The position numbers and the translations under genes are program-made. From assembly GCA_900170005.1 (NCBI GenBank), contig LT827128.1, forward strand, positions 682,001 to 746,000: 64,000 nt of DNA, in the 5' to 3' direction. The notes under the pieces were generated by a model. It was not told the origin of the DNA. It saw only the letters and a program-made list of their open reading frames with translations, and searched no databases. Shown in pieces: positions 40,196 to 55,362 of this stretch. How positions within the stretch are numbered: position 1 is the stretch's first letter; each line of letters starts with the position of its first letter. Source of the stretch: Gordonibacter massiliensis (ex Traore et al. 2017) (GTDB lineage Bacteria; Actinomycetota; Coriobacteriia; Coriobacteriales; Eggerthellaceae).

Positions 40196-41722
40196 CTACA
40201 CGGAAACGACTTCCAACTTCAGCGTTTCGGCGAGAAGCGTCAGTTCCCGCGTGATGTCGCCAAACACGAGCGGAAGCATGAGGCCGACCTTCGCCTGCTC
40301 CTTGTACAAGCGGTACCCGTCGCTCACGCGGAACACGAAACCGCCGTTGCAGTTGTGCAGGTCGTAGCCGTATCCTTTGACGATTTCGCCCTTGACCACG
40401 AGCAGCTTCCTGCAGTCGCCCGAGAAGCGCGCGAGCGTCACGGTTTTTCCGATGTCGGCGTTGAAATCCCGGTGGAACACGGCGCCGAATTGCTGGTCGT
40501 AGGCGAAGTGGCGGATCGCGTAAGGGCCGACCGGCCCCTCGACGCCCTCGACCTTGCGCATCATGGGCGACATGTTCACGCAGTACAGGTTCGAGGTGTC
40601 CTCGATGGCGGAGCGGTCTTGTTCGGGGATCTGGTCGATCCATTGAACGCTGCCTTGCGATTCTACGAGGGGCAGGGTGTTGGCCATGTAGGGCACCTGC
40701 CCGGAAAGGCACAGCTCGGCCATCATGGTCAACGTGGCGGCGATGTCGTACTTGCAGGCGGAGGCGATGCCGCGTTCGTTGTTCAGCTGGTGGTTCAGGC
40801 AGAAGGTGAACTTCTCGTCGTTGAGCCGCCGTGTGGAGCAGAGGTCGGGGCAGGGGATGGCGCAGCCGCTGCAGTCGTGCGCATCGAGGTGCTTGTTGAC
40901 GACCTTCCATGCTTTCAACGAGTTGACCAGGTACTCCTTCGAGATGTCGCACTCTTCGGCACCGCTTATCAGCTCGTCGGCGTAGGCATCCAACTCGGCC
41001 AGGTCGTCGTCGGTTAGGTTGGGCGTGGCGCGTCCGGGGGTGGTCGTGTTGCCCTCGGCGGCCAACGGCTTCATCTGCTCGACGAGCTCGTGGAAGTTGA
41101 CGGGCCTGAAGCTCGTGCCGAACGTGGCCGACGCCTGTTCGAGCGAGATGAACGAGTCGTCCGCTCCGGCGAGCGCCATGGTGTCGCCGAATCGGGTGAC
41201 CAGCAGCACGTTCGCCTCCGCAAGCGCCTTGCGAGCCCTGAGCGCTTTCAGGTAATCGGACACCTCGGGCCAATCGTAGGGCACGTAGACCTCGGCCCCG
41301 ATGTTGAACAGATAGGCCGATTTCATAGGGTTCCACTGGTTCGGGCATATGACGAGGGGCTTCTTGCACTTGCGCCCGAACTCGCGCCAGACGCGGTCGG
41401 CGCCGAACAGCGTGAGGACGAAGTACGCATCCGCCGTCGCGTCATCCTCCATGAGCTTCTCGAGGAAGCCGTCGTCGATGTCCCAATCGTCGGTCGCGGT
41501 GACTGCGGCGGGTTCAAGCAACGTGCAGGCATCGTCGGGGCAGCTGGCGCGCAGGCCCGCCATGACGCCTTTGACGATCTTCGCGTTCAGCACGTCGTCG
41601 AATCTCGGTTGGAGCGCGTCCCCTCCGGTCATTCGGCAAGGGCCTTCGTAATAGTACTTATGCGAGAACAGGCAGAACACCGGTTTCACGTTCAATTTCA
41701 CATCGAGACACGATTTGGACAT
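40196..41722 (-). CDS. L-fucose/L-arabinose isomerase-fold protein, probably non-catalytic
   Basis: A 508-residue soluble protein whose C-terminal half follows the fucose-isomerase pattern: NCNGGFVF then LPLVFGDITREL (usually GxHHxxVYGD). At the three expected metal-ligand positions it has K324, N348 and M482 instead of Glu, Asp and His. It carries C284, C287, C291 and C295 (CSGCAIPCPDLC), a CxxCxxxCxxxC pattern that could hold a 4Fe-4S cluster. Its paralogue at 44007-45542 keeps Glu and His. It is the last gene of a five-gene operon with SufE and SufS. The ATG at 41722 follows GGAGGA. The reaction is unknown. Confidence 0.7.
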   Translation of the reverse strand: MSKSCLDVKLNVKPVFCLFSHKYYYEGPCRMTGGDALQPRFDDVLNAKIVKGVMAGLRASCPDDACTLLEPAAVTATDDWDIDDGFLEKLMEDDATADAYFVLTLFGADRVWREFGRKCKKPLVICPNQWNPMKSAYLFNIGAEVYVPYDWPEVSDYLKALRARKALAEANVLLVTRFGDTMALAGADDSFISLEQASATFGTSFRPVNFHELVEQMKPLAAEGNTTTPGRATPNLTDDDLAELDAYADELISGAEECDISKEYLVNSLKAWKVVNKHLDAHDCSGCAIPCPDLCSTRRLNDEKFTFCLNHQLNNERGIASACKYDIAATLTMMAELCLSGQVPYMANTLPLVESQGSVQWIDQIPEQDRSAIEDTSNLYCVNMSPMMRKVEGVEGPVGPYAIRHFAYDQQFGAVFHRDFNADIGKTVTLARFSGDCRKLLVVKGEIVKGYGYDLHNCNGGFVFRVSDGYRLYKEQAKVGLMLPLVFGDITRELTLLAETLKLEVVSV

Positions 41723-41818
41723 GGTTCCTCCTCATTTTGCCGTTCGAACGGCTTTGGTAGTTGCTCGTAGCGCATCCTGTCGGCCGCCGAAGCGCTTGAG
41801 CGCGCTGGCGGCCCCTCT

Positions 41819-42229
41819 CTAGGTTGCGGTTTGCCTGCCGATGATCTTCCTGACGATCGCCTCCAATCCGCGCAGTTGGGTTTTCGTGAAATGGCGTGCG
41901 AACGCCTCGTCGTCCAGCAGGCCGCACGGGTAGCCTGCGAGCTCTTCGGGGCGCCTGCCGTCGAACAGCTCTTCTAAAAGGGCGAGGGCCCCGCGGATGG
42001 CGATGGACTCCGAGTCGCCGACGAGGCGCACGGTGCCGTCGGCATGGTGCCGTGCGTCGATCCAGGTTTTGACCTGGCATTCCCTGACGAGGTGCCCGTT
42101 GTCGCGCAAGCTGTCGGGATAGGGCTCGGCATCGCCGGCGCAGGCGACGAGGTAGGCGTACTGCAGAACGGGGTCGTCCAGCTCATGCAGGTCGGCCAGA
42201 ATGTCCTCTTCGGTTTCGCGCACGTCCAC
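41819..42229 (-). CDS. SufE-like sulfur acceptor
   Basis: A 136-residue SufE-fold protein that accepts persulfide sulfur from a SufS-type desulfurase. The acceptor Cys is C51 in VRECQVKTWI, matching the V-x-G-C-Q-S-x-V-W signature of SufE, with Gly replaced by Glu. The GTG at 42229 follows AAAGGAGG and lies 47 nt inside the end of the SufS gene. Its position between SufS and a fucose-isomerase-like gene suggests a dedicated sulfur relay rather than general Fe-S assembly; no SufBCD genes are present here. Confidence 0.88.
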   Translation of the reverse strand: MDVRETEEDILADLHELDDPVLQYAYLVACAGDAEPYPDSLRDNGHLVRECQVKTWIDARHHADGTVRLVGDSESIAIRGALALLEELFDGRRPEELAGYPCGLLDDEAFARHFTKTQLRGLEAIVRKIIGRQTAT

Positions 42230-43454
42230 GGACGCCGCCTCCTTTCAGTACGAGCGAGGCCTTCGCGAGCGCTTCGAGCAGGCGGTCTATATCGTCCTTT
42301 GAAGTGAAGGGGGCGACCGACGCGCGCACGGCTCCGGCGTATCCGAGCGCTTCGAGGTAGGGCTGGGCGCAGTGGTGCCCCGAGCGCACGGCGACGCCGA
42401 GGCCGTCGAGCAGCTTCGCCCAGTCGAAGGGGGAGGCGACGTCGACGGAGAAGGAGAGGCATCCGGTCCTCTCGGTCGCTCGCCCCAGCACCTGCGCGCC
42501 CTCGATGTTCGCGAGCCCCGCTTCAAGCCGGTCGATCAGCCGCCGCTCGTGCAACCGGCAGGCGTCCAGGTCGTGCGCGCGCCAATAGCGTATAGCGCTC
42601 GCCAGCCCGACGGCCCCGTCGATAGGCGGGGTTCCCGCCTCGAACCGCTCGACGCCGTCGGAGAGGACGGCGCGGTCGCTCGTGACCTCCCATACCGTGC
42701 CGCCTCCGAACGAGGCGGGCTCGAGCGTCTCCAACAGCGGCCCGCGCACCCAGAGGCCGCCGATGCCGGTGGGCGCGCCCAGCTTGTGGCCGGAGAAGGC
42801 GTACATGTCGCAGCCGAGGGCGGAAACGTCGGTGGGAAGGTGGACGACCCCCTGCGCCCCGTCCACGACCACCACGGCGTCGCTGCGTTCGTGCGCGATG
42901 CCGCTGAGGAGCGCGCAGTCGTTGGCGATGCCGGTGACGTTCGAGAGCTGCGTGAACGCGACGATCTTCGTGCCCTCGTCCACGAGCGTGCGGAAGGCGC
43001 CCGTGTCGAGCGCGCCCTCGCCGTCCACGGGCGCGACGCGCAGATCGCAGCCGGTCCTGCGCGCCAGGCTTCGCCAGACGAGGATGTTGGAGTGGTGCTC
43101 CATCGCGGTGATGACGACGTTCGACCGCTCGTCGAGCCGCGAGGCCAGCATGGCGGCCGCCTTGTTGAGGGAATCGGTGGTGCCGGAGGTGAACACGAGC
43201 TCCGGTTCGCTTCCGCCGACGAACTCCGCAGCGGTGCGGCGCGCTTCGTCGTAGCGCTGCGACGACTCCTCGGACAGCGTGTGCACGCCGCGATGGATGT
43301 TCGCGTAGCTGTTCGAGCGGAAGGCGCACAGCTCGTCGAGCACGAGCCGGGGCATGGGCAGGGTGGCCGCGTTGTCCAGGTAGACGAGCGGCCGGCCGTT
43401 CACCGTGCGGGCGAGGAGGGGGAAGTCGCCGCGCGCGAACGCGTCGCGGCTCAT
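42183..43454 (-). CDS. SufS-type cysteine desulfurase
   Basis: A 423-residue PLP enzyme that takes sulfur from cysteine. Landmarks are YLDNAATLPMP (N-terminal), AMEHHSNILVW, the PLP-Lys in SGHKLGAPTGIG and the catalytic Cys C362 in RSGHHCAQP, the group II (SufS/CsdA) form. The C-terminal 20 residues (GGGVRGRARNRRGHSGRPA) are a basic tail encoded in the overlap with the SufE gene. The ATG overlaps the stop of the upstream unknown gene (ATGA). It probably feeds the adjacent SufE-like protein. Confidence 0.93.
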   Translation of the reverse strand: MSRDAFARGDFPLLARTVNGRPLVYLDNAATLPMPRLVLDELCAFRSNSYANIHRGVHTLSEESSQRYDEARRTAAEFVGGSEPELVFTSGTTDSLNKAAAMLASRLDERSNVVITAMEHHSNILVWRSLARRTGCDLRVAPVDGEGALDTGAFRTLVDEGTKIVAFTQLSNVTGIANDCALLSGIAHERSDAVVVVDGAQGVVHLPTDVSALGCDMYAFSGHKLGAPTGIGGLWVRGPLLETLEPASFGGGTVWEVTSDRAVLSDGVERFEAGTPPIDGAVGLASAIRYWRAHDLDACRLHERRLIDRLEAGLANIEGAQVLGRATERTGCLSFSVDVASPFDWAKLLDGLGVAVRSGHHCAQPYLEALGYAGAVRASVAPFTSKDDIDRLLEALAKASLVLKGGGVRGRARNRRGHSGRPA

Positions 43455-43888
43455 TTCCCGGCCCCGTCGTCCGAAGCCGAAAAAGCCGCGAACATCAGAT
43501 CCGCCAGCTCGTCGGTCGTGTCGGCGAGCCCGGCGCGCAGGCCGTCGAGCGCCACGCCGAACTCGCGCTGCAGCGCCATGATCAGCAGCGCCTGCTTCAT
43601 GTCGACCGACCGCGCGCCGTCGCAGGTTGCCGGGCGCTCGGCTTCGACCACCTGGTCGGGATCGGTTCTGAGCGCTTTCGCGAGGCTCTCCTCCGCCAGG
43701 TCCTCCAGCGAGCGGCTCGGCGCCTCGGCGGCTTCGAGGCCGAATTTCGCCAGCACGTACCGAAACAGGTGCTCGCGCAAGAGCTCGGCGGTCAACGTCC
43801 CCTCGGCGCGCTTCTCGCGGACGGCGTCGACCTGGTCCGCCGCTGCGCGCTTGTCCGCCAGCAGCCTCTCTTTGATGTCGCGACGCAT
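43451..43888 (-). CDS. Uncharacterised 145-residue protein of the SufS operon
   Basis: The first half is a charged helical region (MRRDIKERLLADKRAAADQV). The C-terminal part, DGARSVDMKQALLIMALQRE followed by FGVALDGL, weakly recalls the helix II region of acyl carrier proteins, with RSV in place of the usual DSL and two extra residues before the acidic-Phe step. The resemblance is too weak to assign carrier function. The ATG at 43888 follows GAGGAG; a start at 43981 is also open but has no ribosome site. It is coupled to SufS by a 4-nt overlap, so a role in the same sulfur pathway is likely. Confidence 0.75.
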   Translation of the reverse strand: MRRDIKERLLADKRAAADQVDAVREKRAEGTLTAELLREHLFRYVLAKFGLEAAEAPSRSLEDLAEESLAKALRTDPDQVVEAERPATCDGARSVDMKQALLIMALQREFGVALDGLRAGLADTTDELADLMFAAFSASDDGAGK

Positions 43889-44006
43889 CGCATCTCCTCT
43901 TCTTCGGCGCTTTGCGACCGCATTGAAAGCCGCCGCAACGCGTGCCCTCTGCGGCGCCCGAAACGCCGCCGCAGAGGGCACGTTTGGTGCGGCCTCGCGG
44001 GGCGTG

Positions 44007-45542
44007 CTACGCGCGCACGGGTTCCATGCCCAGGCGCTTCGCCAGCTCCTCCAAGTCGTCGGCGATGTCGCCGTACACGAGCGGCAGGTGCAGGCCGAAG
44101 CGCATCTGCTTCTTGAACAGATCGCGCGTGTCGGCCACCTTGAACACGAAGCCGCCGTTGCAGTTGTCGGTGTCGAAGCCGGTGCCGGTCACGATCTCCC
44201 CCGACACGATGAGCATCTCGTCGAGGTTGGGGGAGATGCGGCAAAGCGTGATCTTCTGCCCGGCGTCGGTGGTGAAGTCGTGGCGTTGGATGGCGCCGAA
44301 GCCCTGGTCGTAGGCGAAGTGCCGCAGTGCGTACGCGTCGGCTGCCGCCTCGAGGCCGTGGAGCTTCCGGCAGGGCGTGGAGTGGATGACCGAGTACATG
44401 TTCGCCGCGTCCTCGAGCGAGATGCCGGCCACGTCCTCCTCGTGCACGTTCACCGGCCATTCGATGCGGCCCTCCGTCACCACGACGGGCAGCGTGTTGC
44501 CCATGTAGGCGGCGCTGTTCGAGAGCGCCATCTCGGCGATCATGCACACGACGGACGTGATGTCGTACTCGCAGGCGCTTCCGAAGCCCTGCTCAAGGTT
44601 GAGCGAGTGCGCCAGGCAGAACGTGAACTGCTGCTCGTTCAGGCGGCGCGTCGAGCACGCGTCCGGGCACGGCGCGGTGAACCCGGAGCAATCGTAGAGG
44701 TCCATGAGCTTTTGCACGACGGTCCAAGCGACGAGCGATTTGACCAAGAACCCCTTGTCGACGATGCAGGGGTCGGCGGAGGCCATCATCTCGTCGGCCA
44801 TCTCCTCGCAGCGCGCCACCTCCTCGGGCGTGATGTTGGGCGTGGCGCGTCCGGGCGTGGTGGCGTTGCCCTCCTCGGGCAGCGGGTTCATCATGTCCAT
44901 GAGCTCGTGCACGTTCACGTGGCGGAAATGGCATCCCAGCTGCCGCGTGACATCCGACAGGCAGGTGAACGAGTCGTTGCCGCCCGCCTTGGGCGTGGTG
45001 GAGTCGAAGCGGGGCGCGAGCAGGATGTTGGCCGTGCGCACGGCCTTCTCGGCGCGCAGGATGGAGCAGTAGCGCGAGACCTCCGGCCAGTCGAAGGCCG
45101 GGAGGATGTCGGCACCGCGCCGTTGGGCCGGCGCGGTGGACATGGCGCCGAACGACTTCGTGGGGTTCATGGCCACGGGCTTGCTCGTGCGGCAGCAGAA
45201 CTCCACGAGGATCTGGTTCGCGCCGAAGTTCGACATGACCACGTAGAGGTCGGTTTTCTGGTCGTCGGCCAGCATCTCCTCGAAGTAGGAGTCCTTGATG
45301 TCCCAGTCGTCGGTGCCGCGCACGATGGCGGGTTCGAGCACGGTCGCGCCCGTCGACGCCACGTACTTTTCCACGTTGGCCAAAAAGCCCTTGAGCATCT
45401 TGCCCTGCACGACGGCGTCGAACCCGGGCTTGATGGCGTCCCCGCCCGCCATGCGGCAGGGCCCCTCGTAGTAGTACTGGTGCTCGAAGCCGATGAACAC
45501 GGGCTTCACGGTGAGCTTGATGTCGGTGACGCTTCGCTTCAT
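44007..45542 (-). CDS. L-fucose/L-arabinose isomerase-fold protein, first gene of the operon
   Basis: A 511-residue soluble protein paralogous to that at 40196-41722 along its whole length (shared PCRM-GGDA, TTPGRATPN, RHFAYDQ-FGA, DNCNGGFVF). It keeps E325 in ACEYDI and H485 in FGLHLPLVYGD, two of the three metal ligands of fucose isomerase; the Asp position is N349. It may still bind a divalent metal and act on a sugar-like substrate. The ATG at 45542 follows AAAGGGG. The promoter region is shared with the divergent PucR-type gene. The real substrate is unknown. Confidence 0.75.
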   Translation of the reverse strand: MKRSVTDIKLTVKPVFIGFEHQYYYEGPCRMAGGDAIKPGFDAVVQGKMLKGFLANVEKYVASTGATVLEPAIVRGTDDWDIKDSYFEEMLADDQKTDLYVVMSNFGANQILVEFCCRTSKPVAMNPTKSFGAMSTAPAQRRGADILPAFDWPEVSRYCSILRAEKAVRTANILLAPRFDSTTPKAGGNDSFTCLSDVTRQLGCHFRHVNVHELMDMMNPLPEEGNATTPGRATPNITPEEVARCEEMADEMMASADPCIVDKGFLVKSLVAWTVVQKLMDLYDCSGFTAPCPDACSTRRLNEQQFTFCLAHSLNLEQGFGSACEYDITSVVCMIAEMALSNSAAYMGNTLPVVVTEGRIEWPVNVHEEDVAGISLEDAANMYSVIHSTPCRKLHGLEAAADAYALRHFAYDQGFGAIQRHDFTTDAGQKITLCRISPNLDEMLIVSGEIVTGTGFDTDNCNGGFVFKVADTRDLFKKQMRFGLHLPLVYGDIADDLEELAKRLGMEPVRA

Positions 45543-45599
45543 GGACGTACCCCTTTCGATGCGCGTAGGCCCGGAATCGTGGAGGGCCTTGGAAACCTG

Positions 45600-45674
45600 G
45601 CATTATCTTAGAATGCGCACCCACCCAAAGATATGTCAAAATGCACATGAATACACGCTATAATGCAGCATTAT
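45600..45674. promoter_or_regulatory. Divergent promoter with repeated AATGC/GCATT half-sites
   Basis: Perfect palindrome ATAATGCAGCATTAT (45660-45674) overlaps the -10 TATAAT (45659-45664) and the start codon of the PucR-type gene. GCATTATCTTAGAATGC (45600-45616) and AATGC (45640-45644) give further half-sites toward the divergent operon. This fits an operator for the adjacent regulator. The -10 spacing places the transcription start at the ATG, so the regulator mRNA is probably leaderless. Confidence 0.65.
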
Positions 45675-47340
45675 GACAATTACGTGCAACATGGTGGCGG
45701 ATAGGGTGGGCGGCGGTGCCGTGCTCGTCGCCCCCGAAGGCGCGTCTCCGCGATTCTCCCACGTCATAGCGGACGGGGAAGGGGAGCTTTGCGCGCTCGG
45801 CGCGTTGCGCGCCACGGTGGGCTCGACGCTGTTCGTGGGCGACGAGGCCTCGTGCCTCGCGTACCTGGCCCGCCACCCGGGTGGCTGGGCGCTGAGTGCG
45901 GGCGGATCGACCGTGGAGCCTTCGACATCGACGGCGGATGCTGGGGATGCGGCCGCCACGAAGCCGGTCGACGCCGCGGCCGCATCCGTGGCAGACGCCG
46001 CGGCGGAGCGCCTGTTCGTCCTGCGCGCTTCCTGCACGCCCGCGCATGCAGCCGCCTGCGCGGCGGCCGAGCTCGCCGACACGCAGGCGTGGATTGCCCG
46101 CATGCAGGAGGCGTTGCTCGCGGGCGGGGGCTATCAGGAGCTTGCAGACGCCGCCGAACCAGCGCTCGGCAACTCCCTTGCGCTGTCGGACGCGGGGTTC
46201 CGCATCATCGCGCACACGCGCCGGCTTCTTCCGCCCGATCCTCTGATGCGCGATTCTATCGAGCAGGGCAGGCTCAGCAGGGAGGCGCTCGATTCGTTCA
46301 GGCGGCACGGCCGCCCGCGGCGATGGAGCACGCAAACGGGCGTGCACGTGCTAGAGGGCTATGGAGGCTGCCCCATCGTGGAGTGCATCTTTCGCGTGGA
46401 GGGTGTCTACGCCGCCCATCTCGTCATGCACTGCGACCGTCGGCCCCTCACCGAGGGCTTGCTGGACAAGCTGGCCTTGCTTTGCACGTGCATCGAGCTG
46501 AACTTGAAGAAGGAGCTGCCGGCCAGCAGGCTGTTCGATCAAGGCCCCGCTCGCGTGCTCGCCGACCTGGCGGCCGGCATGCCCGTTTCGCGCCGCAACT
46601 TGGAAGCGTGGTTCCGTGCGACGGGCCTATCGCGTGACGGACGGTTCGAGCTGGCGGTGGTGGATTACGGGTACCGTGACGACGAACGGCAGTTGGCGGT
46701 GAACGCATGCCTGCGCTTGCTCGACCTCTTCCCCGATGCGGTGGTCGGACTGCAGGACAACCGTGCGCTCGTGCTGCGCTCGCTCGCGGACCGCGATGAT
46801 TCCTTTCGTGCGGCGATCGGACGCCACGCGCTGGAGTTCGGCGGCAGGGCCGGGCTGTCCGACCTGCTCGACCGCGTTGAAGACCTGCGCTACGCGTACC
46901 GTCAGGCGGACATCGCGCTGCAGATGGCGGCGGCCGAGGAGCGCAGCGCCGAGGGAGACGTCGCCTTCGGCGACGGCGGGGGGTCGGATGACGGCGTTCG
47001 GGACGGCGGTGCCTGCCGTTTCCGCGACTACTTCGTAGCCTATCTGCTGGCGAGCGAGCGCCAAGACGACGAGCTCGTGTCGTTCACCGTGTCGCACAGC
47101 GTGCCCGCGCGCCTGCGCGAGGCCGACCGCGCGGCGGGCACGCAGGACTGCGCGTTGCTGCTTTCGTACTTGGCGCTCGAGCGGCGCCCGTCAACCGTCG
47201 CGCAACGGCTGCACCTGCATCGCAACACGTTGTTGTACCGCGTGCGCCGCATAGAGCAGGAATACGGCATCGACCTCGACGATTGGCGCACGCGCGAACG
47301 CCTGCTCGCCGAGTACCAGATCATGCGGTTCGGCGGGTGA
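45673..47340 (+). CDS. PucR-type transcriptional regulator
   Basis: A 555-residue cytoplasmic regulator. The C-terminus holds the PucR helix-turn-helix (RRPSTVAQRLHLHRNTLLYR, VRRIEQEYGIDLDD), preceded by a GGDEF-like regulatory region (about 300-420). The N-terminal half is an Ala-rich sensor region without a clear domain. It has no ribosome site at the ATG and a TATAAT 8 nt upstream, consistent with leaderless translation; the Met at 45691 is an alternative. It is divergent from the fucose-isomerase-like/SufS operon and likely controls it. Confidence 0.85.
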   Translation: MTITCNMVADRVGGGAVLVAPEGASPRFSHVIADGEGELCALGALRATVGSTLFVGDEASCLAYLARHPGGWALSAGGSTVEPSTSTADAGDAAATKPVDAAAASVADAAAERLFVLRASCTPAHAAACAAAELADTQAWIARMQEALLAGGGYQELADAAEPALGNSLALSDAGFRIIAHTRRLLPPDPLMRDSIEQGRLSREALDSFRRHGRPRRWSTQTGVHVLEGYGGCPIVECIFRVEGVYAAHLVMHCDRRPLTEGLLDKLALLCTCIELNLKKELPASRLFDQGPARVLADLAAGMPVSRRNLEAWFRATGLSRDGRFELAVVDYGYRDDERQLAVNACLRLLDLFPDAVVGLQDNRALVLRSLADRDDSFRAAIGRHALEFGGRAGLSDLLDRVEDLRYAYRQADIALQMAAAEERSAEGDVAFGDGGGSDDGVRDGGACRFRDYFVAYLLASERQDDELVSFTVSHSVPARLREADRAAGTQDCALLLSYLALERRPSTVAQRLHLHRNTLLYRVRRIEQEYGIDLDDWRTRERLLAEYQIMRFGG

Positions 47341-47914: not shown

Positions 47915-49387
47915 CTATGCGGCGGGAAGCCGGTCTTCCACTGCTGCGACGATCTCGTCCGCCTGGCCGCCTTCGCTCTCGTCCTCCTCGAACACCGGCG
48001 GCTTCATGGCCACGTAGACGATCCACAGGACGGTTCCGACGGCCGCCGTGACCGCGCACAGCGGCGCCACGTTCGTCCACACCTGGGCCTCGCCGATGAC
48101 GTAGCCCACGACCGGCGTGCACAGCAGGTTCGAGATGCCCTGGAAGAAGATGATGATGGCCATGCCGATGGGCATGGTGACGCGCTTGGGCATGGTGACG
48201 GGCACCATCGACCACACCACCCCGCTCGTCCAGCCGCTCTCCAGACCTAAGAGCACCAGGTAGTAGGGTAGGTACTCGTAGGGGATGAGGAACGCCCCCA
48301 CGTAGAAGAACGCGCAGAAGCCGGCGATGACCACCATGACGTTGCGCGCCTTGATGGTCTGGAACTTCCCCAGCAGGAACGCCGTCACGAGCGCCATGGG
48401 GATGGAGGCCGCGAAGCCGAGCGAGGCCATGGACCCGCCGGACACGCCCGCGGAGGCCTGCGCGTCGGCAAGCGCCACGCCGTCGGCGAGGAGCCTGTTC
48501 AGCTCGATCTCCTGCACGTAGGTGGGTACCCACGTGAGCACCGAGAGCGACGTGAACATGAGGAAGCAGAAGCCCAGACCGAACAGCCACATGCGCTTGA
48601 CCTTGAAGCCCTCCAACAGGATGGAGGCCGGGCGGTGCTGCCTTTGGCCCGTCTCGCGCTCCTTCTTGGCGGCCACGCCCTTGCCGACATGCGGCACGCT
48701 CACGAACAGCGCGAACACCACGAACGCCACGAGGGCGAGCACGTCGGAGAACCACCACCACGCGTGCCAGTTGTGCGGGTCGCCCGTGAGGGCCAGGGCC
48801 ACGGGCACGCCGATGTTGTAGGCCAGCGTCGAGCCCACGACGTACCACAGGTTCCAGATGCCCATGGGAAGGCCCGCCTTCTCGCGGGGGAAGTACATGG
48901 AGATGACGGTGGTGGCCACCACGCCCATCATGGCCACGCCGATGCCCTCGAGCACGCGCCCGACGATGAGCTGGGCGAACGTGGGCGACAGGGCGCCCAC
49001 GGCGCACCCGACCACCATGAAGGCCAGCCCGAACAGGCCGATGCGCTTCGGGCCGAAGCGGTTGAGCAGGAACGCCGACGGGAAGGCGGTGACGATGCCG
49101 GCGACGGCGATGACCGACATGAGCCAGCCGGTGGTTCCGGGGTCGGTATGGAAGTCGGCCATGAGGGCCGGCATGAACGTGGGAACCTTGAACTGGTTCA
49201 TGATGACGATGATGCCGCAGAACAGCATGGCGAACAGCACGATCCAGCCCTTGCGCTGGCGATTCCTCGTCTCGTCGATGCCGGGGTTCGAACCGTTGGG
49301 GGAGGGGGAGGGCCGTGCGGAGTCGGCCGAAGGATGTGCGGCGCCAACGCCCGCCGCATCGCGGGTTTGCTTGTTGTATTCGCTCAT
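47915..49387 (-). CDS. MFS transporter, cluster 3 (second)
   Basis: A 490-residue carrier with a polar N-terminal tail of about 45 residues (MSEYNKQTRDAAGVGAAHPS) and 12 predicted membrane segments. Signatures are AFLLNRFGPKRIGLFGLAFM and MYFPREKAGLPMGIWNLWYV. The ATG at 49387 follows GAAGGG. It lies 139 nt downstream of another MFS gene. Two carriers in one operon may serve substrate uptake and product export. Confidence 0.87.
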   Translation of the reverse strand: MSEYNKQTRDAAGVGAAHPSADSARPSPSPNGSNPGIDETRNRQRKGWIVLFAMLFCGIIVIMNQFKVPTFMPALMADFHTDPGTTGWLMSVIAVAGIVTAFPSAFLLNRFGPKRIGLFGLAFMVVGCAVGALSPTFAQLIVGRVLEGIGVAMMGVVATTVISMYFPREKAGLPMGIWNLWYVVGSTLAYNIGVPVALALTGDPHNWHAWWWFSDVLALVAFVVFALFVSVPHVGKGVAAKKERETGQRQHRPASILLEGFKVKRMWLFGLGFCFLMFTSLSVLTWVPTYVQEIELNRLLADGVALADAQASAGVSGGSMASLGFAASIPMALVTAFLLGKFQTIKARNVMVVIAGFCAFFYVGAFLIPYEYLPYYLVLLGLESGWTSGVVWSMVPVTMPKRVTMPIGMAIIIFFQGISNLLCTPVVGYVIGEAQVWTNVAPLCAVTAAVGTVLWIVYVAMKPPVFEEDESEGGQADEIVAAVEDRLPAA

Positions 49388-49526: not shown

Positions 49527-51002
49527 CTAGTGCTGAGCGGCCGCGTCGCCCTCGGAGGGCTTGCCGGCGGGGGCGCCAGCAGCCTGCTTCTTGGAGGGCA
49601 TGACGCCGAGGCTCAGGATGCAGCCGACGACGCCGATGGGCACGAGCGCCCAGAAGGCCAGCATCGGGTCGACGTGGATGCCCTGGGCGACGGCCTCCTG
49701 CACGGCCTGGCCGATGGCCGGGCCGAAGTCGGCCGGGGTGCCGCCGGAGGCGAGCACGGCCTGCTTGGCGTTGATGGCCACGTTGGAGGCGGCGGTGAGG
49801 CCGTCGTTGAACGGGGCGAGCGCGTAGCTCGTGACGATCTGGCCGGCGTACTGGCCGAGCGTCAGGAACGACAAGCCGAACGCCACGGCGGTGGCACCGC
49901 CCTTGAACACGAACGTCGGCACGAGCGGACGGCAGCAGGCGTTCAGCATCATGTTGCCGATGCAGAAGAAGATGACGTACGGGATGAAGAACTCGGCGTG
50001 GAAGGCCAGCGCGGAGCAGATGGTCAGGCCCAGGATGCCCACGACGACGCACAGGAACTTCTTCGACTTAGGCGTCTTGTCGAGGATCAGGCCGCCGAGC
50101 GGGGCCAGCGCGCCGCAGGCGACGATCAGGCCGCCCCAGAGGCCGGCGGTCGTGGCGTCCCAACCGAAGCCGCCCAGGGCCTCGGGGGTCTGCAGCCACG
50201 TCTTCAGGTACTGGCTGAACGCGTAGTTCATGTAGTTGAAGATGGCGAACATGATGATGAGGCACCACAGCTGGCGGCTCTTGAAGAACTTCAGGACGGC
50301 CTTGAGCGGCTTGCGCTCAGGCGACACCTGCGAGCGTTCTTCGGGCTTCGGATCGCGGAACACCACGGCGAACAGGATGCCGCACAGGGCGGCCACGGCG
50401 ACCCACACCCACTGGAGGTTGCCCATGTCGGAGCCCACCACGTGGTACACGCCGTCGTTCACGAAGTTGGACAGGAAGATGCCCACGGGCGCCCAGCAGG
50501 ACCAGATGGCCATGGCGCGGCCGCGCGTGGAATCCGGGAACCAGGTGGACACGCAGGTGGGACCGGCTACGACGGTGGTGGACAGGCCCAGGCCCAGGAT
50601 GAAGCGGCCGGCCAGGAACACGTAGAAGTTGCCGCCCACGAACGCCGCGCTGATGGCGCCGCCCACGACCGCGCAGCCCACGCCGATGAGCGTGGTGGCC
50701 TTCGGGCCGAACTTGCGCACGAGGAACGTGGTGGGCAGAGCCATGATGAGGGCGCCGATGGGCACGAGGCCCATGACGTTGGACAGCAGGCCGAAGTTGG
50801 CGGGGTTCGCGAAGAACGAGTTGTTCTCGGCCAGCCAGTTCTTGAACACCGGGAACGTGATGCCCGGAAGCCACATCCAGGCGAACACGATGCCCACGGC
50901 CGCCAGCAGCGACACGATCAGGCATGGCCACGCGTACGACGGCGTCTTCTCCACGGGCTTGGCCGCGGGAGCGCCTGCGGTAGCAACAGCAGGATTACTC
51001 AT
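49527..51002 (-). CDS. MFS transporter, cluster 3 (first)
   Basis: A 491-residue carrier with 12 predicted membrane segments. An enlarged loop between the first two segments (about 45-70, ITFPVFKNWLAENNSFFANP) and another near 370-410 distinguish it from its neighbour. Signatures are TFLVRKFGPKATTLIGVGCA and STWFPDSTRGRAMAIWSCWA. The ATG at 51002 follows AAAGAGGGG. Confidence 0.87.
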   Translation of the reverse strand: MSNPAVATAGAPAAKPVEKTPSYAWPCLIVSLLAAVGIVFAWMWLPGITFPVFKNWLAENNSFFANPANFGLLSNVMGLVPIGALIMALPTTFLVRKFGPKATTLIGVGCAVVGGAISAAFVGGNFYVFLAGRFILGLGLSTTVVAGPTCVSTWFPDSTRGRAMAIWSCWAPVGIFLSNFVNDGVYHVVGSDMGNLQWVWVAVAALCGILFAVVFRDPKPEERSQVSPERKPLKAVLKFFKSRQLWCLIIMFAIFNYMNYAFSQYLKTWLQTPEALGGFGWDATTAGLWGGLIVACGALAPLGGLILDKTPKSKKFLCVVVGILGLTICSALAFHAEFFIPYVIFFCIGNMMLNACCRPLVPTFVFKGGATAVAFGLSFLTLGQYAGQIVTSYALAPFNDGLTAASNVAINAKQAVLASGGTPADFGPAIGQAVQEAVAQGIHVDPMLAFWALVPIGVVGCILSLGVMPSKKQAAGAPAGKPSEGDAAAQH

Positions 51003-51125: not shown

Positions 51126-52184
51126 TTACAGGTTGAACAGCTTCGCGGCGTTGCCGCCCAGCATGAGGTCCTTGTCCTCCTGCGGCACGTCCATGGCGTT
51201 GATGGACTCCACGGAGCGGGCCATCCACTCGTAGAACACCGGGAACGACGAGCCCAGCAGCAGATGGTCGGCGCCGCACACCTTCGCCGCGCACTCGAGC
51301 TGGTCCTTGCCCCAGCTCATGGGGTGCGTCATGTCGAAGAACAGGTTGTTGGTGAGGTAGCGGTCGTACGCCTCGTGGTCGACGTTGGTGGCCAGGCGGT
51401 TCATGGCCTCCTTCTTCTTGGTCGACTTGTGCGGGGCGAGGATGTTCTGCAGGCCGAACCAGTTGCCGCCGAACATCGTGTGGATGAACTTGAGGTTCGG
51501 GAACTCGTCGAACATGCCGGAGTAGATCTCGCGGCCCACGGCGGCGGCCTGCGCGTGGATGCGGCCGAGCTCGCGGCGGAGCACCGTGTACTCGTCGAAG
51601 TTCGCGTAGGCGTTCTGGCCGGGCGTGTGGTGGATGACGGCCGGGATATTCTTCTCGTTCAAGACCTTCAGGTAGGGCTTGAACATGTCGTCGTCGAGGA
51701 AGCGGTCGCCGTAGCAGCAGGCCAGCTGCACGCCCACCATGCCCAGCTCGTCGATGCAGCGCTCGAGCTCGGCCACGTCCTCCTTGCGGCCCCACGGCGG
51801 CACGACGGCGTTGGCGTACAGGCGGCCGTTCGAGCGCTTGCACATCTCGGCGGCCTGGTCGTTCACGATCTTGCAGGTGTCGAGCGAGAGCCATTCCTGC
51901 CACACCGGCATGCGCAGAAGGGCGATGTCCACGCCGTTCTCGTCCATGGCCTGCAGCTTCGTCTCGAGCGTGTAGTCGCCTTCCACGTAGTTCAGGATCT
52001 GCTTGCCCTCGGGGTACTCGAGGATGAGCTGGTCCTTCGCGCCGTCCGGCGTCTTGTCGATGTAGGCCTTCATGCCGAACGCGATGGGCGCCGAGTACAG
52101 GAACCCGTGCAGGACCTCTTCGTTGGTGAACAGGTCGGTCGGCAGGAAGTGCATGTTGATATCGATGACCTTGTTTTCCGCCAT
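51126..52184 (-). CDS. Amidohydrolase-2 (ACMSD-like) family protein with altered metal sites
   Basis: A 352-residue TIM-barrel protein related to metal-dependent decarboxylases and hydrolases of the ACMSD group. The usual D-x-H-x-H start reads IDINMHFLP, so the first His is Asn. Later metal positions keep His (AVIHHTPG, FIHTMFGGNW), but the C-terminal Asp region reads LLLGSSFPVFYEWM instead of GSDxP. Metal binding may be weakened or changed. The ATG at 52184 follows GAAGGAGG. In this operon it could decarboxylate or hydrolyse an aromatic precursor or product of the molybdoenzyme; this is inference. Confidence 0.82.
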   Translation of the reverse strand: MAENKVIDINMHFLPTDLFTNEEVLHGFLYSAPIAFGMKAYIDKTPDGAKDQLILEYPEGKQILNYVEGDYTLETKLQAMDENGVDIALLRMPVWQEWLSLDTCKIVNDQAAEMCKRSNGRLYANAVVPPWGRKEDVAELERCIDELGMVGVQLACCYGDRFLDDDMFKPYLKVLNEKNIPAVIHHTPGQNAYANFDEYTVLRRELGRIHAQAAAVGREIYSGMFDEFPNLKFIHTMFGGNWFGLQNILAPHKSTKKKEAMNRLATNVDHEAYDRYLTNNLFFDMTHPMSWGKDQLECAAKVCGADHLLLGSSFPVFYEWMARSVESINAMDVPQEDKDLMLGGNAAKLFNL

Positions 52185-52320
52185 TGTTCCTCCTTCTTGT
52201 GGTTGACGGGGGCTCGTCCAAGATCGCGCTTGCGGAGCGCTTTCGCTTGCAGGCTCGCAAGCGTCATCTCGTACGGCCCGGGTGCGTGCGGTGCCGCCGC
52301 AGGACGGCACCGGTTAAGCC

Positions 52321-52592: not shown

Positions 52593-52937
52593 CTACGCCT
52601 CGTTGATGGCGACGATCATCTGCTTGGGGGCCTCGATCTTCTTCGCGAGATCCTCGACGTTGCCCCAGTCGAGGCACTGCGCCTGGCAGTGCTGCACGCA
52701 GGTGGGCTGCTTGCCCTTGCCCACGCGCTCGGCGCACATATCGCACCACTTGGTGAACTGGGGGATGAAGTCGTACTGGTAGTCCTTCTTGGCCTCGTCG
52801 ATGTGCAGCGGGCCCAGCTTTGTGATCTTCAGGCCGAACTCCTTCTCGGAGTAGCCGTGCTCCTGCTGGCAGGCCAGCACGCAGGCCTCGCAGCCGGTGC
52901 AGTAGTCGACGTCGACCAAAATTCCCTGATAAGCCAT
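52593..52937 (-). CDS. 4Fe-4S ferredoxin subunit, cluster 3
   Basis: A 114-residue partner of the molybdoenzyme with CTGCEACVLAC (about 13-23) and CDMC ... CVQHCQAQC (about 64-89). The ATG at 52937 (MAYQG) matches the starts of its two homologues in clusters 1 and 2; the ATG 9 nt upstream is an alternative. It lies 22 nt after the molybdoenzyme stop. Confidence 0.9.
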   Translation of the reverse strand: MAYQGILVDVDYCTGCEACVLACQQEHGYSEKEFGLKITKLGPLHIDEAKKDYQYDFIPQFTKWCDMCAERVGKGKQPTCVQHCQAQCLDWGNVEDLAKKIEAPKQMIVAINEA

Positions 52938-52959
52938 GTCTCTCATTCCTTTCCGGCTG

Positions 52960-55362
52960 CTATTCGGCCTTGTAGATCTTGCACATCATGGCCTTGTAGT
53001 TCGAGCCGAAGCCCGAGACGCCGGCGTCGAAGGGCACGAGGTTGTTGATGTTGGACTCGAGCACGCCGAACAGGCCCTTCTGCTCGTCTTCCACGTTCTC
53101 CTCGGCGGCGTCCTTGCGCTCCGGGAACCACCAGCCGTGCTCAGCCTGCATGACGCGCGGGTCGTAGGTGTCGTTGAACGAGGCCTTGTACTTGCACTTG
53201 CCGTGCTTGTTCTCCAGCCAGATCCAATCGCCTTCCTCGATGCCGTTCTCGGCGGCCGTGTCGGGGTGGATGTACACGAGCGGGTCGGGGTGCAGGCTGC
53301 GCAGCTTCGTCACCTGGCGCTGCTCGGAGTGGAAGAAGTGCGGCACGCGGGCGCCGGAGGTCACGATGTAGGGGTACTCCTCGGTGTCCTCGGGGGCGCT
53401 GTAGGGGCTCTCCACCGGCTCGACGTAGCTCGGCAGCGGATCGAGGCCCGACCACGACGTGTGGTGGAACACCATGGAGTAGATCTCCGCACGGCCCGTC
53501 TCGGTGCGGAAGCCCGGCTGGCCGTCGGGGCGCAAATCGCCCGTCTCGTACTTGCGGTACTTGAACTCGGGGTACTTCCACGTCGACTCGCGCAGCTCGT
53601 CCCACGTGAAGCCGCCGTCCTCGAGCGCGTAGTCCCACATTTCCTGCACGTCGTCCCACGGCCAGGCGATGTCGTTGTTCTCGGGCTTGATGGCCTGCGT
53701 CAGGCGCTTGCCCAGCTCGAGGAATATGGTGTTGTCGGGCTTGGAGTCGCCCACGGGCTCGATGGCCTTGTTGATGCAGCTGATGCGGTAGGCGTTCAAC
53801 CCGCCGAAGCCGTCGCGCTCCTCGTAGGTGGCGGCGGGCAGCACCACGTCGGCCAGGGCCATCATCGTGGGGGTCATGAACAGGTCGGACACCACGATGA
53901 AGTCGATCTGCTTGTACCATTCCAGCTGCTGCTCGGCCTGGGCGCCCATGGTGGCCAGGAAGTTGTTGGTGACGATGTAGGCCGCCCGGATGGGGATCTC
54001 GCCGCGCTGCCACGCCTCGATGGTGGCGTTGGAGGACAGGTTCTTGAAGCCCACGGCGAACATGGGGTAGCGCTCCACGCCGATGCGCTTGGACTGCTCT
54101 TCCTCGGTCATGAGCTCGTCCCAGCCCCAGGTGCCCGTCCAGTTCGGCTGCTCGATGCCCCAGCATGCGTCGCCCATGACGTTGCCGCCGGGGATGTCCA
54201 GGTTGCCGGTGATGCACCACATGGCCGTGATGGCGTGCGCGGCCTGCTGGCCGCCCGTCTGCTGGTCGAGCGCCACGCCCCACTGGATGGCGGCGGGGTG
54301 CGAGGTGGCGTAGGTGCGGGCCACGCGCTGGACGTCGTCCTTGGACACCCAGGCCTTCTCGCACAGGTCGTCCAGGTCCATCTCCGCGACGCGCTCGCAC
54401 ACGGCTTCCAGTCCGTACACCCACTTGTCGCAGAAGTCCTGGTCGTAGAGCTTCTCGTCGCAGATGACCTTCAGCATGGCCATGGCCAGCGCGCCGTCGC
54501 CGCCGGGGCGCACGCGCAGCCAGTCCTCGCCGGCGCGGGCCGCGAGCCACGTGAGCTGCGGGTCCACCACGGCCACCTTCATGCCGCGCTTCATGAGGTC
54601 GGTGATCCAGTGGCCGTAGAAGCCGTCGGCGTTGCTGTAGAAGGGCTGGTGGCCCCACACGATGCAGTACTCGGGCACCGTGTAGCGAGGGTCGTCGTAG
54701 CGCTTGGGCAGGAACTGCGAGCAGTCCATGACGCAGGCGCCGCCCAGCATGCAGGCCATCGAGGCGATGCGCGGCAGGTAGCAGGAGTTGCCGGCGAAGT
54801 AGGGCACGCCCTCGTTCGGGGAGCCCACGCAGGCGTTCAGGCGCGTGACCTGGTGGATGTCGCGGCCCGTGCCCTGGCACATGGCGATCTTGTCGGCGCC
54901 GTAGGTGTCCACGACGCGCTTGAACTCGCGCGTGATGATCTCGTACGCCTCGTCCCAGCTGATCTCGACGAACTTGTCCTTGCCGCGATCGGCGCGGTCG
55001 CGCTTCATGGGATGCAGCAGGCGGTCCTCATGGTAGACGTAGTCGGGGATGCACAGGCAGCGGCTGCACAAACGGCCCTGGTTGTAGGGGTCCTCCGGGT
55101 CGCCTTCCACCTTCACCAGCTTGCCGTCCTTCACATAGGACAGGATGCCGCACACGTTGTGGCATCCCGGTGCGGAGCGCGCGGTGCCGCGGATGACGGT
55201 CATGCCGTCCTCCTCCCACGTCCAAGGCACCTTCGGCGTCTCGGCTGCGGGGACGGGCGGGCGCGTGTCGGTCTTCTTCGGCAGGCGCGAGCCGCGGCGG
55301 TACTTCTTTCCGTTGGTCTCGCTCCAATGCTCCTGCACGGAGGCCTCAGCAGAATCGGCCAT
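52960..55362 (-). CDS. Molybdopterin-dependent oxidoreductase, cluster 3 (catechol-dehydroxylase-like)
   Basis: An 800-residue DMSO-reductase-family catalytic subunit. Likely cluster ligands are C67, C71, C99 and C102 (PGCHNVCG ... LCSRC). Landmarks are FVEISWDEAYEIITREFKRV, FAGNSCYLPRIASM and FHSEQRQVTKLRSLHPDPLV. The basic N-terminal stretch KKYRRGSRLPKK is not followed by a hydrophobic segment, so it is not a Tat signal. The ATG at 55362 follows AAAGGAGG. It heads an operon of ferredoxin, a 65-residue protein, an amidohydrolase-like protein, two MFS carriers and a triple-motif miniprotein. Confidence 0.88.
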   Translation of the reverse strand: MADSAEASVQEHWSETNGKKYRRGSRLPKKTDTRPPVPAAETPKVPWTWEEDGMTVIRGTARSAPGCHNVCGILSYVKDGKLVKVEGDPEDPYNQGRLCSRCLCIPDYVYHEDRLLHPMKRDRADRGKDKFVEISWDEAYEIITREFKRVVDTYGADKIAMCQGTGRDIHQVTRLNACVGSPNEGVPYFAGNSCYLPRIASMACMLGGACVMDCSQFLPKRYDDPRYTVPEYCIVWGHQPFYSNADGFYGHWITDLMKRGMKVAVVDPQLTWLAARAGEDWLRVRPGGDGALAMAMLKVICDEKLYDQDFCDKWVYGLEAVCERVAEMDLDDLCEKAWVSKDDVQRVARTYATSHPAAIQWGVALDQQTGGQQAAHAITAMWCITGNLDIPGGNVMGDACWGIEQPNWTGTWGWDELMTEEEQSKRIGVERYPMFAVGFKNLSSNATIEAWQRGEIPIRAAYIVTNNFLATMGAQAEQQLEWYKQIDFIVVSDLFMTPTMMALADVVLPAATYEERDGFGGLNAYRISCINKAIEPVGDSKPDNTIFLELGKRLTQAIKPENNDIAWPWDDVQEMWDYALEDGGFTWDELRESTWKYPEFKYRKYETGDLRPDGQPGFRTETGRAEIYSMVFHHTSWSGLDPLPSYVEPVESPYSAPEDTEEYPYIVTSGARVPHFFHSEQRQVTKLRSLHPDPLVYIHPDTAAENGIEEGDWIWLENKHGKCKYKASFNDTYDPRVMQAEHGWWFPERKDAAEENVEDEQKGLFGVLESNINNLVPFDAGVSGFGSNYKAMMCKIYKAE

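Follow-up and report, generated by a model that had tools for sequence, protein, structure and literature searches.

We describe here an operon that joins a SufS-type cysteine desulfurase and the sulfur acceptor SufE to two paralogous proteins with the predicted fold of arabinose/fucose isomerases (ISO-1 and ISO-2, collectively ISO) and to a small protein (UNK) whose C-terminal domain probably resembles acyl carrier proteins (ACPs). SufS and SufE of this cassette are dedicated to the ISO/UNK system, and we give about even chances to the interpretation that it codes for a catabolic enzyme of isomerase fold equipped with a sulfur relay of its own, leading from SufS through SufE and Cys89 of UNK to ISO. 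The window, i.e., the whole stretch of 64,000 nucleotides analysed here, corresponds to C1:682001-746000 of a complete 3.95-Mb genome close to Gordonibacter (the ISO-1 protein is 96% identical to its counterpart in Gordonibacter sp. 28C, 91% to that in Ca. G. avicola and 89% to that in G. pamelaeae). The operon (45542-40196) comprises five consecutive open reading frames (ORFs) on the minus strand: ISO-1 (P0001; 45542-44007, 511 aa), UNK (P0002; 43888-43451, 145 aa), SufS (P0003; 43454-42183, 423 aa), SufE (P0004; 42229-41819, 136 aa, with a GTG start preceded by AGGAGG) and ISO-2 (P0005; 41722-40196, 508 aa). UNK and SufS overlap by exactly 4 nt (ATGA), SufS and SufE by exactly 47 nt. All coordinates were verified, and the operon span, the five ORFs and both overlaps given in an earlier note on this DNA proved exact on re-examination.

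Recurrence of the gene set and its SufS/SufE genes

The same genome carries the gene set a second time (C1:3487-3493k), where a third ISO (C1:3489.7-3491.2k, 35% identical) is accompanied by SufS, SufE and a second UNK. As the genes are arranged differently at this locus (UNK and SufE are on the opposite strand, and an MFS transporter gene lies immediately upstream), it is not a simple segmental copy. Furthermore, related members of the class carry the set with its genes in differing order, and the association is therefore more than chance. The conserved unit consists of four genes, for ISO, UNK, SufS and SufE, with ISO-2 being an extra paralogue without its own UNK; thus, all five ORFs of the five-gene set proposed in the earlier note are present, but only four of them form the core.

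The distribution of the cassette was studied with profile searches for ISO, UNK and SufE in 400 genomes of Coriobacteriia. Strong ISO matches were found in 21 genomes belonging to four families, strong UNK scores in 19 and SufE in 19 as well. All 19 UNK-containing genomes possess ISO, and the overlap is 18 of 19 both for ISO with SufE and for UNK with SufE (hypergeometric p ~1e-27 to 1e-30, without phylogenetic correction). The pattern is patchy: the cassette occurs in 13 genera and is absent from one genome of the same genus and from most sampled Eggerthellaceae. Only remote isomerase-like matches to ISO were obtained in 297 other genomes of the phylum outside the class; a contig scan with the single ISO sequence gave matches in Gordonibacter only, and a plasmid search with P0001 gave none.

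In the loci examined, UNK adjoins 33 of 36 ISO copies. The three ISO genes without an adjoining UNK are ISO-2, a divergent copy in genome G395 and a fragment at a contig end, in a genome whose UNK is located at another contig end. ISO and UNK co-diverge, their distances being correlated with r=0.86 (29 pairs, Mantel); the corresponding values are 0.81 for SufS-SufE, 0.69 for ISO-SufE and 0.58 for ISO-SufS. Genome G317 possesses six ISO, six UNK and three SufE genes, whereas G222 and G376 have two, two and one each. This one-to-one ratio of ISO to UNK with fewer SufE would be expected of cognate pairs drawing on a shared sulfur supply; most simply, each ISO-UNK pair can be read as a client module and SufS/SufE as the common source.

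The six ISO-UNK pairs of G317 lie within ~130 kb (C1:240k-388k), which suggests an expansion for different substrates. At the G326 locus (L072:7027-8517), the gene of a leucine-rich-repeat-variant (LRV) protein lies between those of UNK and SufS; binding of a 4Fe-4S cluster is known for an LRV protein. Two stretches free of ISO and UNK depart from the cassette rule, one (G154:C12:80000-99900) with SufS and SufE as a pair, the other (G317:C1:1704000-1723900) with SufE alone.

P0003 falls among the class-V aminotransferases (PF00266, E=4e-113) as a SufS-type protein with intact SGHK and RSGHHC motifs; its TIGR01979 score (405 bits) is below the cut-off of 475. P0004 belongs to SufE (PF02657, E=4.5e-22, 78.6 bits vs a gathering score of 27) and retains the conserved Cys51. 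No SufBCD genes are present in the operon region, as had been noted before, and the SufBCD-SufS linkage of a SUF system is thus missing there. Homologues of SufB/D (SUFBD_core) are encoded elsewhere, at C1:467-469k beside another SufS (C1:465-469k) and at C1:513k. This SufBD-adjacent SufS would cover general iron-sulfur (Fe-S) assembly, and in our tree, not all branches of which reach the strict support threshold, the cassette SufS sequences fall outside the clade of the SufBD-linked copy. The genome encodes exactly two SufE proteins, both at ISO loci. The dedication of the cassette SufS/SufE to ISO and UNK follows from the separate SufS adjoining SufBD and from the coupling with ISO/UNK at the genome level. 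The dedicated system foreseen in the earlier note, which would have failed if the paralogues occurred mostly without SufS/SufE or if these were the sole copies in the genome, is therefore borne out: 18 of the 19 genomes with UNK-linked ISO possess SufE, mostly beside ISO, and a separate SufS exists.

Another SufS-type gene (C1:3475141-3476286) is located directly downstream of genes for proteins resembling, by eye, tungsten-type aldehyde:ferredoxin oxidoreductases and for an Fe-S protein (C1:3470-3476k); it possibly encodes another dedicated desulfurase.

The ISO and UNK proteins

The isomerase fold of the large proteins, formerly a guess, is now confirmed at the level of predicted structure. 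The AlphaFold2 model of ISO (predicted local distance difference test, pLDDT, 91.5) has its best PDB matches in Foldseek among L-arabinose (E ~1e-18) and L-fucose isomerases (~1e-13; overall range ~1e-18 to 1e-12), and ISO accordingly belongs, by modelled fold, to the arabinose/fucose isomerase superfamily. Profile comparison revealed homology to COG2407-type relatives (99.5% probability); direct sequence searches of the PDB, whether started from P0001 or from the profile of ISO, gave no matches. With 27.5 bits for P0001 and 11.9 for P0005 against a cut-off of 700, the proteins are not members of NF048012 (sulfoquinovose isomerase SftI). The idea of a dihydrophloroglucinol cyclohydrolase was considered and rejected, since this activity is found in the 'cyclase' family (PMC10470551).

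E325, D327, H387 and H485 of ISO-1 align with positions conserved in COG2407-type relatives, and N349 sits where several of them carry Asp; from this alignment, E325, N349, H387 and H485 are putative metal ligands. Of the metal-ligand set of the superfamily (Glu, Asp/Glu, His, His), P0001 would thus retain E325, H387 and H485, with N349 in place of one acid. Seven cysteines (29, 285, 292, 296, 309, 324, 461) are invariant in every ISO copy covering them, and four of these (29, 285, 296, 461) are specific to the ISO family, as read from the profile comparison. ISO-2, which is 48% identical to ISO-1, keeps all seven cysteines and has its putative metal ligands replaced (E325K, H387M, H485M), and the G395 copy has lost at least E325. 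These two proteins are at the same time the only full-length ISO copies without UNK. Though just two in number, they hint at an association of UNK with an intact putative metal site and at a role of the cysteines independent of that site.

P0002 has no Pfam match. The PDB entries ranked highest for the UNK profile are ACPs, and a Foldseek search with the UNK model likewise places ACPs first (probability up to 0.99, TM-score 0.78 by target length, E-values >0.1). The hhalign probability for UNK vs ACP is 41%, a weak single score, and PF00550 was matched by only 4 of 25 UNK members (best E=0.0023). The protein thus has a helical N-terminus followed by a domain that is likely, though not certainly, ACP-like. 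Cys89 and Lys98 are conserved in all 34 UNK sequences, and the one segment of the model whose pLDDT falls below 50, predicted to be a flexible loop, contains Cys89. Ser94, aligned with the phosphopantetheine serine of ACPs, is conserved in 33 of 34; the remaining protein carries Ala at this position and Ser one residue earlier. The DSL phosphopantetheine motif is absent from UNK, with CxGxSSxxxK in its place, and the alignment to ACPs contains two extra residues after the serine. In G376, UNK and SufE are fused in a single ORF of 278 aa. The ACP-like nature of UNK and the loss of putative metal ligands in ISO-2 had escaped the earlier note, whose overall reading stands in respect of the dedicated system.

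Genomic surroundings

A PucR-type regulator (P0006; 45673-47340, plus strand, 555 aa) is encoded divergently from the operon; it carries HTH_30 (PF13556, 48 bits vs a cut-off of 27) and GGDEF_2, and the identities predicted earlier for SufS, SufE and this regulator are all supported by family matches. A strong RNA hairpin is predicted between ISO-1 and UNK (43941-43982, minus strand; minimum free energy of the region -65 kcal/mol, z=-4.2) and perhaps sets the ratio of ISO to relay expression. Together with a second GC-rich hairpin (41780-41815 of the window), it brackets the UNK-SufS-SufE block, and the two possibly create a difference in mRNA stability between the ISO and relay genes.

Outside this core, the minus strand between 47915 and 55362 encodes two MFS transporters (49527-51002 and 47915-49387), an amidohydrolase-family decarboxylase-like protein (51126-52310), an Fe-S subunit (52593-52946) and an ORF belonging to the molybdoenzyme sequence cluster (52960-55362). 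Other Gordonibacter and genus g27 show a similar order of neighbours next to ISO, and the nearest solved relatives of the amidohydrolase neighbour in these genera include 5-carboxyvanillate and gamma-resorcylate decarboxylases. Regulators of the P0006 sequence cluster are present at 15 examined loci, and transporters and regulators adjoin most ISO loci (GPH symporters at several, MFS at others, SNF also being among the transporters). The molybdoenzyme encoded upstream of ISO-UNK-SufS in G156 has pyrogallol hydroxytransferase as its closest match (E=1e-123); the gene clusters of G317 are arranged in the same way, with the molybdoenzyme directly upstream of ISO-UNK, and the G295 locus adds a PhlG-like hydrolase. 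The divergent ISO and SufS of G395 (C110:17000-31347) are encoded in an operon with EIIA and EIIC-GAT components of a phosphotransferase system (PTS), DeoR-like regulators, a class II aldolase and a creatininase-HAD fusion. With phenolic-acid or trihydroxybenzene-type genes at some loci and sugar PTS and aldolase genes in G395, both phenolic rings and sugars are possible ISO substrates, although a sugar substrate is not established.

A proposed sulfur relay, its alternatives and known systems

In the proposed mechanism, SufS would take sulfur from L-cysteine as a persulfide and hand it to Cys51 of SufE. UNK, specific to each ISO, would accept the sulfur on its loop Cys89 and dock on ISO, where it would be placed on the invariant cysteines, so that a persulfide, Fe-S or other metal-sulfur site is assembled or charged. 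We infer this direction of transfer and the nature of the site from the gene set and the conserved residues. ISO would then convert a sugar-like, cyclic-polyol or trihydroxybenzene-derived substrate imported by the linked transporters, with ISO-2 retaining only the cysteine site. More specifically, the ACP-like protein may carry sulfur on a cysteine, each time for its own client, from SufE to a new isomerase-fold family that uses a cysteine-borne sulfur or metal-sulfur cofactor in catabolic chemistry (e.g., of trihydroxybenzene-derived rings or sugars), a proposal that we make tentatively and consider rather less probable than its opposite.

Several observations weigh against the relay. Genome G156 has ISO-UNK-SufS without SufE, and G395 has ISO-SufS without UNK or SufE; a complete relay is thus not a requirement. 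Around the SufE genes at G154:C12 and G317:C1:1713k, the 20 kb examined contain neither ISO nor UNK. Cysteines 292, 309 and 324 are also present in ordinary COG2407-type relatives, species history contributes part of the ISO-UNK co-divergence signal, and Ser94 of UNK could instead mark a phosphopantetheine carrier.

The same coupling of ISO, UNK and SufE would fit a role of the persulfide sulfur as a stoichiometric substrate, with ISO making a thio-sugar, thioacid or other sulfur metabolite; elsewhere, thio-sugars and thiocarboxylates are indeed made with sulfur supplied by carrier proteins. However, the neighbours look catabolic (MFS, GPH and SNF transporters, the PTS and class II aldolase of G395, the decarboxylase-like protein, the PhlG-like hydrolase), one cysteine per turnover would be costly for catabolism, and no recognised biosynthetic tailoring gene recurred among the neighbour clusters inspected, which makes this explanation unlikely. 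We favour delivery of sulfur to a protein site rather than into a product because of the seven invariant cysteines, the cognate ISO-UNK pairing, the lower number of SufE and the catabolic neighbours. It is still less probable that UNK is a true phosphopantetheinylated carrier holding an organic substrate for ISO, with SufS/SufE maturing the cofactor separately. The ACP-like profile and fold and the position of Ser94 speak for such a carrier, whereas the missing DSL motif and the additional residues after the serine, the replacement of Ser94 in one protein that keeps the strictly conserved Cys89 and Lys98, the UNK-SufE fusion, and the lack of acyl-transfer, adenylation or thioesterase proteins among the neighbours scanned speak against it.

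Molybdoenzyme genes lie within ~8 kb of many cassette copies, and in G156 and G317 they immediately precede ISO-UNK; the cassette could in principle mature nearby dimethyl sulfoxide (DMSO)-reductase-family molybdoenzymes through FdhD-like sulfuration of the molybdenum cofactor. We regard this as very improbable, since G295 has the complete cassette without any PF00384 match. G395 lacks such matches as well, and G275/G279 have only 7-10, whereas ~60 DMSO-reductase-family molybdopterin (PF00384) matches in the Gordonibacter genome analysed here, and similar numbers in several related ones, mean that proximity is often expected by chance; moreover, the cassette is missing from most sampled Eggerthellaceae, including one genome of the same genus. 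Finally, SufS and SufE are usually proteins of Fe-S assembly, and ISO and UNK might be their chance neighbours. With a separate SufS beside SufBD, SufE in so few genomes of the class (18 of the 19 having ISO) and a gene set that recurs in rearranged orders, this is scarcely credible.

Like the SufS-SufE and CsdA-CsdE relays, the cassette possesses a SufS-type desulfurase with a conserved catalytic cysteine and a SufE acceptor (Cys51); unlike them, it has no adjoining SufBCD or CsdL/TcdA, its partners being an isomerase-fold client and an ACP-like protein. NifS/NifU of nitrogenase likewise set a desulfurase aside for a single type of client, an analogy in concept only, as the client differs and no scaffold homologue was found in the ISO operon. 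The literature search, which covered few subscription journals, yielded no paper linking fucose isomerase with SufS/SufE or describing the gene set. Desulfurase-acceptor relays being already known, it is the ISO client, its ACP-like partner and their phyletic coupling that appear undescribed. In gut-associated Coriobacteriia, the cassette thus links a dedicated cysteine desulfurase with two families that have no accepted Pfam/NCBIfam assignment. Should the relay model be true, the known sulfur-trafficking systems would gain both a new client and a new type of carrier, and a sulfur-dependent enzyme would come to light in organisms known for polyphenol metabolism; if UNK is indeed a cysteine-based ACP-like carrier, both enzyme and carrier would be of a previously undescribed type. 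ISO shares the predicted fold with L-arabinose/L-fucose isomerases, and the E325, D327, H387 and H485 positions with COG2407-type relatives, the group that includes SftI. It is, however, only 10-15% identical to the solved isomerases, and is set apart by N349 in place of the Asp of several relatives, by the four family-specific invariant cysteines and by the linkage to SufS, SufE and UNK. Similarly, UNK resembles ACPs in profile and structure matches but is distinguished from them by a helical N-terminal extension of ~60 residues, by the absence of DSL, by the invariant Cys89 and Lys98, and by its partnership with ISO and SufE.

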